From Crystallibacter degradans (lineage in GTDB: Bacteria > Actinomycetota > Actinomycetes > Actinomycetales > Micrococcaceae), in the NCBI RefSeq assembly GCF_012952295.1, contig NZ_JABBCH010000013.1, positions 48,790-112,789 of the forward strand: 64,000 nucleotides of DNA, written 5' to 3'. Below, piece by piece: positions 23,407 to 50,044 of this stretch. Made by a program: the position numbers and the translations under genes. The notes beneath the pieces were generated by a model. The model saw nothing but the letters and a program-made list of their open reading frames with translations. It ran no database searches and was not told the origin of the DNA. How positions within the stretch are numbered: position 1 is the first letter of the stretch; each line of letters begins with the position of its first letter.

Positions 23407-25896
23407 CTACCCGCGCAGCCGTTCCATCTTCGGATCGACCAGCGGCTCGGCGGCGATGGTCGCGGCGACCTTCCGGCCGAAGTAACCGATCTCCACGGAA
23501 TCACCCTCCGACAGGCCTGCCGGCAGCCAGGCGTAGGCGATGGGCCGGCCAACGGTGAAGCCGTAGGCCGCGCTCGTGACGTATCCCGCGGGCTCGCCGC
23601 CGACGAACACCGGTTCCTTGCCCAGCACTACGGACGTACCGTCGTCGACGGTCAGGCAGCGCAGTTCCCTGGAGGCAGGCTCGGCCCGGCGGGCAACCAA
23701 GGCCTCGTATCCCACAAAGTCCGTCTTGTCCTTGAAGACGGAGAAGCCGAGCCCGGCTTCATAGGGGCTGTGCTCGGGAGTTACATCCGTGCCCCACAGC
23801 CGGTAGCCCTTTTCCAGCCGGAGGCTGTTGAAGGCGCCGCGGCCGGCGGCGATGATGCCGTGCTCCTGGCCGGCCTCGAAGAGCAGGTCCCACAACTTCA
23901 GCCCGTTCTCGGCCGAGGTGTACAGTTCCCAGCCGAGCTCCCCGACATAGGACAGCCGCCAGGCGGTGACAGGGATGCCGCCGATGTGGACCTCCTTGGC
24001 CCGGAAATAGCGCAGCGAATCATTGGTGTAATCGTCCTCGCTGACTTTGCCGATGACCTCACGCGCCAGCGGTCCCCACAGCCCGATGCAGCAGGTGCCG
24101 CCGGTGATGTCGGAGACATGGACCCACTGTGCCGGATCGGCCGCGGACTGCTTGCGGGCCTCGACCCGGAAGTAGTCGAAGTCGATATTGCCGTTGACGC
24201 CGAGCTGGAAAGTCTCCTCAGCGAGCCGTGCGATGGTCACATCGCTGCGGACGCCGCCGTCGTCCGCCAGCAGCAGGCAGTAGGTGACAGCTCCGGGCTT
24301 CTTGGCAATGTTGCCGGTGCTCAACCGCTGCAGCAGCGCCAGCGCGCCCGGGCCGGTAACTTCAAGCCGCTTCAGCGGAGTCATGTCATAGAGCGCGACG
24401 GCGGTACGCGTCTTCCATGCTTCCGCTGCGGAGATGGGGGAGTGGAACATGGCGGACCAGCTGTCCCGCTCCGGTGCCTGCCACTCTTCCGGCAGTTCCT
24501 GCAGCAGGGCGTGGTTGGCCTCGTACCAATGCGGACGCTCCCAGCCTGCGGACTCCAGGAAGAACGCGCCGAGTTCATGCTGGCGGACGTTGAACGGGCT
24601 GACGCGGAGATCGCGCGGAGATTCCCGTGGCTGCAGCGGGTGGAGCACGTCGTAGATCTCCACGAAGTTCTGCTGCGAGGTTTCGCTGACATACTCCTTG
24701 CTGACCTGGATCTTCTCGAAGCGGGTAGCCTCGCATTCGTGCAGGGGCGTGCTGGACTGGCCTTCGACCAGCAGCTCGGCGACGGCCTTGGCGACGCCGG
24801 CCGAGTGGGTGACCCAGACAGCCTCCGCGAGGAAGAACCCTTCGACCTCGGGCGATTCGCCGATCAGCGGGCCGCCGTCCGGGGTGAAGGAGAAGATGCC
24901 GTTGAAGCCGTCCTCAATCTCTGCGCCACGCAGAGCGGGCAGCAGATCCTGGCTGTCCTGCCACGAAGGCAGGAAGTCGGCTTCGGTAAATTCCAGCCGC
25001 GAAGGCATGCGGTGCTCGGACATTTGGTCTGCCCGTACCTGGGGCAGCTCGTCCAGATCCACGGGCATGGGGCGGTGGGCGTAGGAACCTATGCCGATCC
25101 TTTCGCCATGCTCGCGGTAGTACAGGTCCTTGTCCTGGTGACGCAGGATGGGCAGGCGGGCGCCATTGGGCAGCTCGTTCTGGCCTGCCAGTTCCGGCAC
25201 TGCCGTGGTCTTGACGTACTGGTGTGCCAGCGGCAGCAGCGGCACCGGCATGCCGACCATGGCACCGATTTTGGGGCCCCAGAAGCCAGCGCAGGAAACC
25301 ACGATGTCCGCCGGCACCACGCCGTCAGGCGTCTGCACGCCGGTGACCTTGCCGCTGGCCTGCTCAATGCCGGTCACCGCGGTGGAGCCGATGAACTTTA
25401 CCCCCGCTTCGCTGGCCTTTTCGATCAGCAGTTGCACCGCCCGCGCGGCGGAAGCCAGACCGTCGGAGGGCACATACAGTCCGCCCAGGACCATATCCCG
25501 GTTGATCATCGGGTAGCGCTTCTCGCACTCATCCGGATCGATCAGCCGGCCCTCAAGGCCCCAGGACGTGGCGAAGCCCAGCCGGCGCTTCAGCTCCTGG
25601 AGCCGTGCCTCGGTGGTGGCGATCTCAAGCCCGCCGACCTGGTTGAAGCAGGAGCGCCCATCCGCACTGAGCGAGAGCAGCTTGTCCACCGTGTAGCCGG
25701 CGAACTCGGTCATCGTCTTGGACGGGTTGGTCTGGAACACCAGGCCGGGAGCATGCGAGGTGGAACCGCCGGCCAGATGCAGCGGTCCCTGTTCGATGAC
25801 GGTGACATTGTTCCAGCCACGCGTGGCCAGTTCGTCGGCGAGGTTGGCGCCGACAATGCCGGCCCCGATGATGACGACGCGGGGTGTGTGGCTCAT
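23407..25896 (-). CDS. dmg: Dimethylglycine oxidase (FAD and folate domains)
   Basis: The 829-residue protein reads almost along its whole length like the Arthrobacter globiformis enzyme (830 residues). An N-terminal FAD domain has [17 protein letters not shown]. His48 in GSTSHAPG is the covalent flavin site, and His225 and Tyr259 match the active-site residues. The C-terminal half (about 430-829) is a GcvT-type folate-binding domain, with Asp552 in [10 protein letters not shown] at the catalytic position. The reaction is N,N-dimethylglycine to sarcosine, with the methyl group passed to tetrahydrofolate as 5,10-methylene-THF. It is the last gene of a minus-strand operon with purU, a BCCT transporter and a Rieske ferredoxin (gaps 22, 26 and 51 bp). 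Confidence 0.95.
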
Positions 25897-25918
25897 AGGT
25901 ATTCTCCTTGGATCGCGG

Positions 25919-47761: not shown

Positions 47762-49161
47762 TGGCGCTCAGCGCACTTGATCTGTTTTCCGTCGGCATCG
47801 GCCCCTCCTCATCGCACACGGTGGGGCCGATGCGGGCGGCCAAGCGGTTCACCGACGGCTTGGTCCGGGACGGGCAGCTGACCGCAGTTGCCCGCGTCCG
47901 GGCCGAGCTGTTCGGCTCCCTGGGTGCCACCGGCTTCGGCCACGGCTCGGACAAGGCCGTGGTGCTCGGCCTGCAGGGCCAGGACCCGGAGACGGTGGAC
48001 ACGGACACGGCCGACGCCCAGGTCCGCGACGCCGTCGCGGCACGGAAGCTGGCGCTGGCAGGTGAGCATCCGGTGTCCTTCGACTGGGACGCCGACGTGA
48101 TCCTGCACCGGCGCAAGGCCTTGCCGGCGCACCCGAACGGCATGACCTTCTTCGCTTACGACGACGCCGGCGACCTGCTGCGCGAACGCACCTACTATTC
48201 GGTAGGCGGCGGCTTCGTGGTGGACGAGGATGCGGCCGGAGCGGACCGGATCGTCGAAGACACCACCGCCCTGCCCTACCCGTTCACCACCGGCGCCCAA
48301 CTGCTGGCGCACTGCCGGGCCGAAGGCCTCTCCATCGCCCAGGTCATGCTCGCCAACGAGCTCACCTGGCGCAGCGAAGCCGAACTCCGCTCGCAGCTGC
48401 TGCACATCTGGTCAGTCATGCAGCAGTGTGTGGAGAACGGCTGTACCCGCACAGAGGAGAGGTTGCCCGGGGGACTAAAGGTCCGCCGTCGTGCTCCTGA
48501 ATTGCGGCGCAAGCTGCGCCAGATCGAGGCAACGGCCGCCACCAGCGGCAGCCCGCAGCCGGATCCGCTCTGGGCCATGGAATGGGTCAATCTTTACGCG
48601 CTGGCGGTCAACGAGGAGAATGCCTCCGGCGGCAGGATTGTCACCGCGCCGACCAACGGGGCGGCCGGCATCATCCCGGCCGTGCTGCACTTCTATACCC
48701 GGTTCGTCCCGGGTGCGGATGACGACGGCGTGGTCGAGTTCCTGCTCACGGCGGCGGCAGTGGGTATCCTCTTTAAGGAGAACGCGTCCATCTCCGGTGC
48801 AGAAGTTGGTTGCCAGGGCGAAGTAGGCTCGGCCTGCTCCATGGCCGCCGGCGCGCTGTGTGCGGTGCTGGGCGGGACACCGGAACAGGTTGAAAACGCT
48901 GCCGAAGTCGGCATCGAGCACAACCTGGGGCTGACCTGTGATCCTGTGGGAGGGCTGGTGCAGATTCCGTGCATCGAGCGCAACGCGATCGCCAGCGTCA
49001 AGGCGATCAACGCCGCGCGGCTCTGCCTGCAGGGCGATGGTGAGCACAAGGTCTCCCTGGATCAGGCCATCAAAACGATGCGCGAGACCGGCAAGGATAT
49101 GAAGATCAAGTACAAGGAGACCTCCCGTGGTGGCTTGGCCGTCAACGTCATTGAGTGCTGA
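47761..49161 (+). CDS. sdaA: L-serine ammonia-lyase
   Basis: The 466-residue single-chain enzyme joins the beta domain ([24 protein letters not shown]) to the alpha domain ([26 protein letters not shown]). Cysteines for the [4Fe-4S] cluster appear in [17 protein letters not shown] and in [21 protein letters not shown]. It deaminates serine to pyruvate and ammonia. In this operon it drains the serine made by GlyA, so sarcosine carbon can enter central metabolism. Its last 35 nt overlap the purU gene. Confidence 0.96.
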
Positions 49162-50044
49162 ACAACAACCCGCTCCGGGGGCCGAAGTGGTGAGTGAGCT
49201 GGTGCTGACCCTGGACTGCCGGGAGGCGCCGGGCATCGTGCACGCCGTCAGCGGGGTGCTGCTGGAACACGGCTGCAACATCGTCGAACTCAAGCAGTTC
49301 GACGACAGGCGCCTGGGCCACTTCTTCATGCGGGTCCACGTGGCATCCTCGACCGGGGAGGCGCTGGACGAGGAAGCCCTGCGCAAGGACTTCGGGCCGG
49401 TGGCCGAACGTTTCGGGATGAGCTGGGAGCTCGACCGGCACGGGGCCAAGCGGCGCGTGATGATCATGGTCTCCAAGTTCGGGCACTGCCTGAACGACCT
49501 GCTGTTCCGCGCACGCACGGGGGAGCTGCCGGTGGAGATCGTCGCCGTGGTGTCCAACCACCGCGACCACCAGCGGCTGGTGGAGTGGCACGGCATCCCG
49601 TTCTTCCACATCCCGGTCACCCCGGACACCAAGCCGGAAGCCGAGGCGAAGCTGCTGGAACTGGTGGACCGCTTCGAGGTGGACCTGGTGGTCCTGGCCC
49701 GCTACATGCAGGTGCTCAGCGACTCGCTGGCCACCCGGATGGCTGGCCGCGTGATCAACATCCACCACTCCTTCCTGCCCAGCTTCAAGGGGGCCAAGCC
49801 CTACCACCAGGCGTACGACCGCGGCGTGAAAACCGTGGGCGCCACCGCACACTACGTCAACAGCGAGCTGGATGAGGGCCCGATCATCGCCCAGCAGTTG
49901 GTGGACGTAGACCACACCTTCGGCCCCGAGGACCTGGTCGCGGCCGGGCGGGACACCGAATGCAAGGCGCTCTCCAACGCGGTGAGGTGGCACTGCGAAG
50001 GCCGCGTCATCCTGCACGGAAACCGGACCGTAGTGCTGCGCTGA
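49127..50044 (+). CDS. purU: Formyltetrahydrofolate deformylase (second copy)
   Basis: The 305-residue protein has an N-terminal ACT-type region ([25 protein letters not shown]) and the hydrolase core with [26 protein letters not shown] and [15 protein letters not shown]. It is clearly a paralogue of 25919-26896. It releases formate from 10-formyl-THF, regenerating THF for sarcosine oxidase. GTG 49127 is chosen because AAGGAGA lies 6 nt upstream, inside the end of sdaA; later GTG codons at 49187/49190 are weaker. It is the last gene of the operon. Confidence 0.94.

Follow-up and report, generated by a model that had tools for sequence, protein, structure and literature searches.

A putative betaine and creatine catabolic island in Crystallibacter degradans with a Rieske oxygenase of a separate Group V-like branch

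The window analysed here is a stretch of 64,000 nucleotides (contig NZ_JABBCH010000013.1, positions 48,790 to 112,789, forward strand; assembly GCF_012952295.1) from Crystallibacter degradans, a soil bacterium of the Micrococcaceae with a genome of 4.96 Mb in 124 contigs, and the subject is an island of methylated-amine genes at 23.4–50.0 kb of this window. Pfam and NCBIfam profile scans and PDB sequence searches of the window's proteins recovered every enzyme named in a first-pass annotation: a betaine branch (BCCT transporter, Rieske oxygenase with its ferredoxin and reductase, dimethylglycine oxidase (DMGO)), a creatine branch (MHS-type permease, creatinase) and the sarcosine operon glyA-soxBDAG-sdaA-purU, together with the regulators it had listed, two IclR, one GntR and one PucR. 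Absent from that list were a second purU gene, purU1, and an NCS1-type permease gene (Table 1). What sets the island apart is the contiguity of the two branches with the sox operon; the new point is the oxygenase, a candidate for a second betaine demethylase family that draws on another electron chain, the rest being mostly known pathway. We put at about 0.65 the probability that this is a catabolic island in which the oxygenase, a second Group V-like branch in which an aromatic residue replaces the asparagine of GbcA, takes GbcA's place in metabolism.

Group, electron partners and linkage of the Rieske oxygenase

Among solved proteins, the oxygenase matches 3VCA with 176 bits and carnitine monooxygenase 6Y8J with 158 bits, while the next group lies at about 97 bits; 4QUP is also among the nearest, and both 3VCA and 4QUP are presumably stachydrine demethylases (3VCA being Stc2). 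With 3VCA so identified, the nearest solved relatives belong to Group V. The iron site reads ENFMECYHC, in which E204, C205 and C208 are invariant in 17 aligned sequences, and the motif is present in 80/80 loci studied; these rank highest among at least 591 relatives, 29 of them lying in the window's family and 51 outside it, and Arthrobacter, Pseudarthrobacter, Kocuria and similar genera are the nearest named relatives among them. In the available text of two papers, a bridging Glu and a Cys-X-X-Cys pair are marks of Group V (PMC7948474, PMC10952381), the Cys pair occurring in some members and not in all (PMC10952381). According to the available text of PMC7948474, CntA position 203 separates group Va, with Tyr or Phe (carnitine, choline, benzalkonium), from group Vb, with Asn (GbcA, BmoA, Stc2). 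At this site Phe is found in the window's oxygenase (Phe202) and in all 80 of its best actinobacterial relatives, whereas Asn is found in 23 motif matches in GbcA-like loci of the window's family, drawn from 24 loci with at least two genes (G092, G094) scanned twice. The oxygenase is about 30% identical to the GbcA-like proteins of the family, and in four trees, whose Vb rows were chosen by motif and similarity and include no proven GbcA, BmoA or Stc2, 14 oxygenase rows are separate from the GbcA-like and Stc2-like proteins. By sequence, then, the oxygenase is a separate Group V-like branch and not an ortholog of GbcA or BmoA. Its nearest neighbour in the trees is a Priestia homologue, with support of 95/90, 100/99 and 97/95, and of 82/51 when E. 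coli YeaW was kept and three other rows were dropped. Structure prediction with AlphaFold2 on 17 sequences gave an oxygenase model with a mean pLDDT of 45, which was set aside.

The best solved match of the ferredoxin is biphenyl dioxygenase ferredoxin (69 bits), and that of the reductase is biphenyl dioxygenase ferredoxin reductase (229 bits). A GR-type reductase lies within 5 kb of the oxygenase in 29/29 family loci and 42/51 others, and a Rieske ferredoxin in 23/29 and 35/51, respectively; a search of the 80 loci for an FNR-Fer2 reductase (GbcB) near the oxygenase gave one weak match (L038, 31.5% identity over half of the query, more than 7 kb off). GbcA-like genes in sister genomes, by contrast, are followed by an FNR-Fer2 reductase, its domains being found in 3/3 loci scanned in the right frame and homologues in 11/11 loci taken with their surroundings from the 66 genomes that carry GbcA-like genes; neither a Rieske ferredoxin nor a GR-type reductase was found in these GbcA-like loci. 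The frame L121:7703-8950, tried as a GbcB-like reductase, gave no match, and the adjacent frame matched. The oxygenase had been taken at first for an ordinary betaine oxygenase; it belongs to another branch than the GbcAB described so far and has a different electron chain.

Linkage was counted in 197 genomes of the Micrococcaceae, the window's genome included; the counts are lower bounds because many assemblies are fragmented, and they are uncorrected for kinship among the genomes. The oxygenase occurs in 36 genomes (raw count 37; a 37% identity match in G152 and a second fragment row of G042 were excluded), DMGO in 101, creatinase in 94, SoxA in 115 and a strong GbcA-like match (72 rows at 376 bits or more) in 66. 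DMGO is present in 35/36 oxygenase genomes, within 20 kb in 33, and in 66/66 GbcA-like genomes, within 20 kb in 53. One or both oxygenase types are found in 91/101 DMGO genomes: 25, the window's among them, have only this oxygenase, 56 only a GbcA-like one and 10 both. DMGOs at 76–79% identity to that of the window adjoin either oxygenase type, which suggests that related genomes have exchanged the oxygenase system with GbcAB beside one and the same oxidase. The neighbourhood recurs more often than by chance: the four markers (oxygenase, DMGO, creatinase, SoxA) fall inside 30 kb in 10/36 oxygenase genomes, the window's included, and creatinase and SoxA are no more than 20 kb apart in 57/94 creatinase genomes; the same four-marker grouping around a GbcA-like gene occurs in 2/66 genomes.

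A relative of this arrangement is found in another phylum. On the Priestia megaterium plasmid NZ_CP071467 (L140), a DMGO homologue (43% identity; flavin adenine dinucleotide (FAD) and folate domains), solA, an oxygenase homologue (43%, ENFQECYHC) and a BCCT gene stand in a row, followed on the opposite strand by a Pyr_redox_2 reductase and gcv genes, and no GbcB is annotated within this stretch. The solA product, which has a DAO domain, is probably a monomeric sarcosine oxidase, and the plasmid set looks like what a route from betaine to glycine needs, in Bacillota and with the same oxygenase branch. At another locus, in Arthrobacter globiformis NBRC 12137 (L037), two DMGO and two PurU genes lie around the same oxygenase.

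Gene order, carbon flow and regulation

The layout suggests the following transcription units: on the minus strand, ferredoxin-BCCT-purU1-DMGO, MHS permease-creatinase-IclR2-IclR1, the NCS1 permease gene and the GntR gene; on the plus strand, reductase-oxygenase (divergent from the ferredoxin unit), the PucR gene and glyA-soxBDAG-sdaA-purU2, whose genes overlap or are closely spaced. The order from BCCT to PucR, the part compared, is kept in two genomes of the same genus with 89–99% protein identity. DMGO matches a characterised enzyme over its full length, with both the FAD and the folate domains, and the sox operon has all four subunits of a heterotetrameric sarcosine oxidase, soxD being assigned by position and conservation. 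The open reading frame 43896-44174, which overlaps the corrected frame, was rejected as soxD; it gave no match to any family model or solved chain. Upstream of the island, a Zn-alcohol dehydrogenase gene at 20908-22014 was rejected as a mycothiol formaldehyde dehydrogenase (135 of 513 bits). Immediately 3' of the island, a TetR-type regulator and a DHA2-type MFS efflux gene lie at 50284-52550; a sodium/solute symporter, an HTH-cupin regulator and an agmatinase-family ureohydrolase are grouped at 56166-60777, possibly another guanidino-compound locus.

Table 1. Features of the island in window positions; bit scores written "x of y" give the score against the model cut-off (THF, tetrahydrofolate).
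Feature	Position	Strand	Evidence or remark
Dimethylglycine oxidase (DMGO)	23407..25896	-	1387 bits over 1-829 to dimethylglycine oxidase 1PJ5; DAO, FAO_M, GCV_T domains
purU1, formyl-THF deformylase of betaine unit	25919..26896	-	TIGR00655 320 of 286 bits
BCCT transporter, probably betaine uptake	26923..28836	-	PF02028; TIGR00842 504 of 408 bits
Rieske [2Fe-2S] ferredoxin, BphA3-like	28888..29313	-	PF00355; start likely 29256 or 29238
Divergent promoter region	29339..29469	.	TTGACA-like at 29339 (minus) and 29406 (plus); kept in relatives
GR-type ferredoxin reductase, BphA4-like	29503..30738	+	HcaD-like in NCBIfam
Rieske oxygenase, Group V features, proposed betaine N-demethylase	30824..32020	+	Phe202 at CntA-203 position
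IclR1 regulator	31994..32797	-	PF01614, PF09339
IclR2 regulator, adjoins creatinase	32901..33731	-	PF01614, PF09339
Creatinase (creatine to sarcosine and urea)	33843..35150	-	552 bits to creatine amidinohydrolase 1CHM
MHS-type MFS permease, probably creatine uptake	35151..36611	-	TIGR00883 414 of 443 bits
NCS1-type permease	37342..38889	-	PF02133
PucR-type regulator	38983..40506	+	PF07905, PF13556
GntR (FCD) regulator, divergent from sox operon	40548..41219	-	PF00392, PF07729
glyA, serine hydroxymethyltransferase	41356..42654	+	NF000586 614 of 335 bits
soxB	42654..43871	+	TIGR01373 629 of 529 bits
soxD, corrected frame	43886..44215	+	Translation; kept between soxB and soxA in relatives; position and conservation only
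soxA	44212..47139	+	TIGR01372 1321 of 1164 bits; 1425 bits to sarcosine oxidase 1VRQ
soxG, open frame, true start probably near soxA end	47024..47761	+	PF04268; TIGR01375 141 of 144 bits, slightly under cut-off
sdaA, serine ammonia-lyase (serine to pyruvate)	47761..49161	+	TIGR00720 694 of 345 bits
purU2, formyl-THF deformylase of sox operon	49127..50044	+	TIGR00655 339 of 286 bits

In the proposed pathway, the BCCT transporter would import betaine, and electrons would pass from reduced nicotinamide adenine dinucleotide (NADH) through the GR-type reductase and the Rieske ferredoxin to the oxygenase, by which betaine would be demethylated to dimethylglycine and formaldehyde; DMGO would then convert dimethylglycine to sarcosine and methylene-THF. 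Creatine would be imported by the MHS permease and hydrolysed by creatinase to sarcosine and urea. From both branches, SoxBDAG would turn sarcosine into glycine and methylene-THF, GlyA would join glycine and a one-carbon unit to serine, and SdaA would yield pyruvate, while the two PurU enzymes would free THF from surplus one-carbon units, released as formate. The convergence on sarcosine and the onward route through glycine and serine to pyruvate, as the first-pass annotation had it, follows from the enzyme families, and it is also published. The available text of PMC4941409 describes glyA, soxBDAG, purU and dmg as jointly converting betaine to serine in two Arthrobacter strains; PMC3534580 reports the order glyA-soxBDAG-sdaA-purU as well as the use of creatine and sarcosine for growth, and the available part of Table 2 of that paper lists betaine as used for growth by Arthrobacter Rue61a, with creatine, sarcosine and betaine as carbon sources. 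In substance, the main inference from the island is thus already in print. Growth of C. degradans itself on betaine or creatine, and separate control of the parts of the island, are plausible predictions.

Creatine yields one one-carbon unit per glycine, and GlyA could therefore in principle absorb all of it. Betaine yields formaldehyde and two methylene-THF per glycine, three one-carbon units in all, of which at most 1/3 can therefore enter serine in this way. purU1 of the DMGO unit and purU2 of the sox operon are 52% identical, and the presence of two such genes fits the return of THF and the disposal of surplus one-carbon units as formate. The earlier proposal that serine takes up the oxidised methyl group, which is thus not burnt, therefore fits creatine but not betaine, where the two PurU genes point to one-carbon disposal.

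The creatinase matches 1CHM over its full length, with the best non-creatinase at 87 bits, and on the score to 1CHM the readings of this M24 protein as ectoine hydrolase or prolidase, its top NCBIfam matches, were rejected. A second creatinase gene in the same genome adjoins creatininase and another BCCT gene (L118:10392-14360, contig C1), neighbours retained by the second copy in two relatives, and speaks for a creatinine branch beyond the window. The two creatinases are 98% identical in protein and 98.9% over 1275 bp of DNA, with dissimilar flanks; in four genomes, the copies within a genome share 97.5, 99.7, 99.1 and 95.7% identity, compared with 96.4% at most to the copies of other genomes, and gene conversion between copies would be the simplest reading. 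In one genome (G007, locus L135), an NCS1 permease gene adjoins creatinase at the place that the MHS permease has in the window. The NCS1 and MHS permeases may replace each other beside creatinase.

A relative of IclR1 is found no more than 5 kb from the oxygenase in 21/29 family loci and 47/51 others, and near a GbcA-like gene in 2/11 loci (L123 and L124; 64 and 72% identity). The promoter between the ferredoxin and reductase genes was compared in 23 loci, the window included, out of 30 examined, in which both genes are divergent and close. The divergent TTGACA-like elements are each present in 22/23, and an inverted repeat TTGC-N7-GCAA, at 29455-29469 in the window, is exact in 14/23 (mean of 0.07 in shuffles that preserved base composition only) and has at most one mismatch in 21/23 (1.79 in the same shuffles); of the other spacers, from 4 to 10, each is seen in one locus at most. 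The window holds four copies, at 29455, at 36580 upstream of the MHS-creatinase unit, and at 50292 and 57724, both outside the island. The repeat is a candidate operator and, at the betaine promoter, most likely that of IclR1. The copy at 50292 is a perfect palindrome, TTGCAGTGACTGCAA, beside the TetR and DHA2-type MFS efflux genes, and the copy at 57724 falls within the symporter/HTH-cupin/ureohydrolase group.

Alternative readings

Several observations weigh against betaine demethylation by the oxygenase, and some of them favour the view that its substrate is a different quaternary amine (choline, carnitine or a plant betaine), that it has no more than its location in common with the rest of the locus, and that betaine is left to another demethylase or is not demethylated, a reading that we consider unlikely. 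Phe at the CntA-203 site is the published mark of group Va and not that of the betaine demethylases; YeaW, which acts on carnitine, groups on the oxygenase side of the trees at 97/90 and 92/84, on a very long branch; and 10/197 genomes carry both oxygenases, whose substrates may therefore differ. The oxygenase also scores 220 of 670 bits with the GbcA model NF058607, a cut-off that the family's GbcA-like proteins miss too (0/197 genomes over it, best 412 bits), and the BCCT transporter scores 544 of 650 with the betaine model NF047988. Moreover, 10/101 DMGO genomes have neither oxygenase, DMGO lies within 5 kb of the oxygenase in 18/29 family loci but in 8/51 outside the family, and the literature searched yielded no biochemical work on oxygenases of this branch. 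Against another amine stand the close linkage to DMGO (33/36 genomes), the 25 DMGO genomes with this oxygenase and without a strong GbcA-like match, and the Priestia operon. Furthermore, a choline oxidase is encoded elsewhere in the window's genome (1181 bits), so that the oxygenase need not act on choline; no gene of this genome exceeded the cut-off of the choline dehydrogenase model, and one of the matches to this model proved to be the choline oxidase.

Two other readings concern the island as a whole. That the creatine and betaine branches are neighbours by accident, as two independent modules in this lineage, seems doubtful: creatinase and oxygenase are 20 kb or less apart in 8/36 genomes and the four markers are within 30 kb in 10/36, and in Rue61a DMGO (c04530) is far from the sox operon (c39610-39670) by locus tag (PMC3534580), but SoxA is present in 94/94 creatinase genomes (within 20 kb in 57) and 97/101 DMGO genomes, and a similar inverted repeat lies upstream of both branches in the window. 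It is quite improbable that the island serves mainly nitrogen supply and one-carbon disposal, with methyl groups leaving as formate through PurU and serine as a minor product. The two PurU genes and the three one-carbon units per betaine agree with such a role, as does the control that the nitrogen regulator AmtR has over creatine utilisation genes in Corynebacterium glutamicum, described in the available text of PMC8864220; the position of glyA and sdaA inside the sox operon, and the carbon growth of Rue61a on creatine, sarcosine and betaine in the available part of PMC3534580, speak against it.

The gene context from which the substrate of the oxygenase is proposed thus leaves betaine as the preferred reading. 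We lean, with somewhat less assurance than for the island as a whole, towards the broader proposal that the oxygenase represents a second, widespread betaine N-demethylase family of Actinomycetota with a relative in Bacillota. In this family, the aromatic residue would hold the trimethylammonium group as in carnitine oxygenase, the methyl group would be removed as in GbcA, and electrons would be supplied by a chain of biphenyl dioxygenase type; the system would have been swapped with GbcAB beside the same DMGO in related genomes and would catalyse a first step of betaine use in Arthrobacter, among them A. globiformis. Betaine is abundant as an osmolyte. If the oxygenase does demethylate betaine, surveys based on gbcAB overlook some of its carriers in Arthrobacter, Kocuria, Streptomyces and Mycolicibacterium; it is through gbcAB that genome surveys find betaine degraders (e.g., in the available text of PMC12478193 and PMC3691474). 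The oxygenase also offers a test of the residues that decide between C–N cleavage (CntA) and N-demethylation (GbcA).

Relation to known systems

By paper titles and abstract openings, no actinobacterial, Bacillus or three-component betaine oxygenase was found, in an incomplete search of the matches by which absence from print is not established; bmoA and bmoB, of the GbcAB type, are reported from Paenarthrobacter in the available text of PMC11945447. The sarcosine operon and dmg of Arthrobacter and Corynebacterium (Meskys 2001 and Suzuki 2005, as cited in the available text of PMC3534580 and PMC4941409) share with the window the enzymes from sarcosine to pyruvate and their order, the type of DMGO and the link to betaine; the same text assigns no gene to the first betaine step, and the window adds the oxygenase, ferredoxin, reductase and creatine branch. 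A 37-kb island of Colwellia psychrerythraea 34H likewise has glyA-soxBDAG-purU beside betaine demethylation genes, but these are GbcAB and DgcAB, with no creatine branch mentioned in the available text of PMC3691474, whereas the window has DMGO and a creatine branch. In the creatinine cluster of Arthrobacter sp. TE1826, creatinase adjoins sarcosine oxidase, as in the window; according to the available text of PMC4941409, however, the sarcosine oxidase is monomeric and clustered with creatinase and creatininase, while that of the window is heterotetrameric and creatininase lies elsewhere in the genome.

For the oxygenase itself, GbcAB and BmoAB (available text of PMC12093977 and PMC12478193) share the proposed reaction, the Rieske fold family, the bridging Glu and Cys-X-X-Cys; they have Asn at the diagnostic site and a single FNR-Fer2 reductase, unlike the window, which has Phe, a separate clade, and a Rieske ferredoxin with a GR-type reductase. 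CntAB and YeaWX (available text of PMC7948474 and PMC10952381) have the same aromatic residue type at CntA-203, the bridging Glu and Cys-X-X-Cys, but the window's oxygenase is set among genes of betaine catabolism, and no CntB-type reductase was seen beside it. The electron chain resembles BphA3/BphA4 of biphenyl dioxygenase, whereas the oxygenase that it would serve belongs to the quaternary-amine group, has one subunit type and is not an aromatic-ring dioxygenase.

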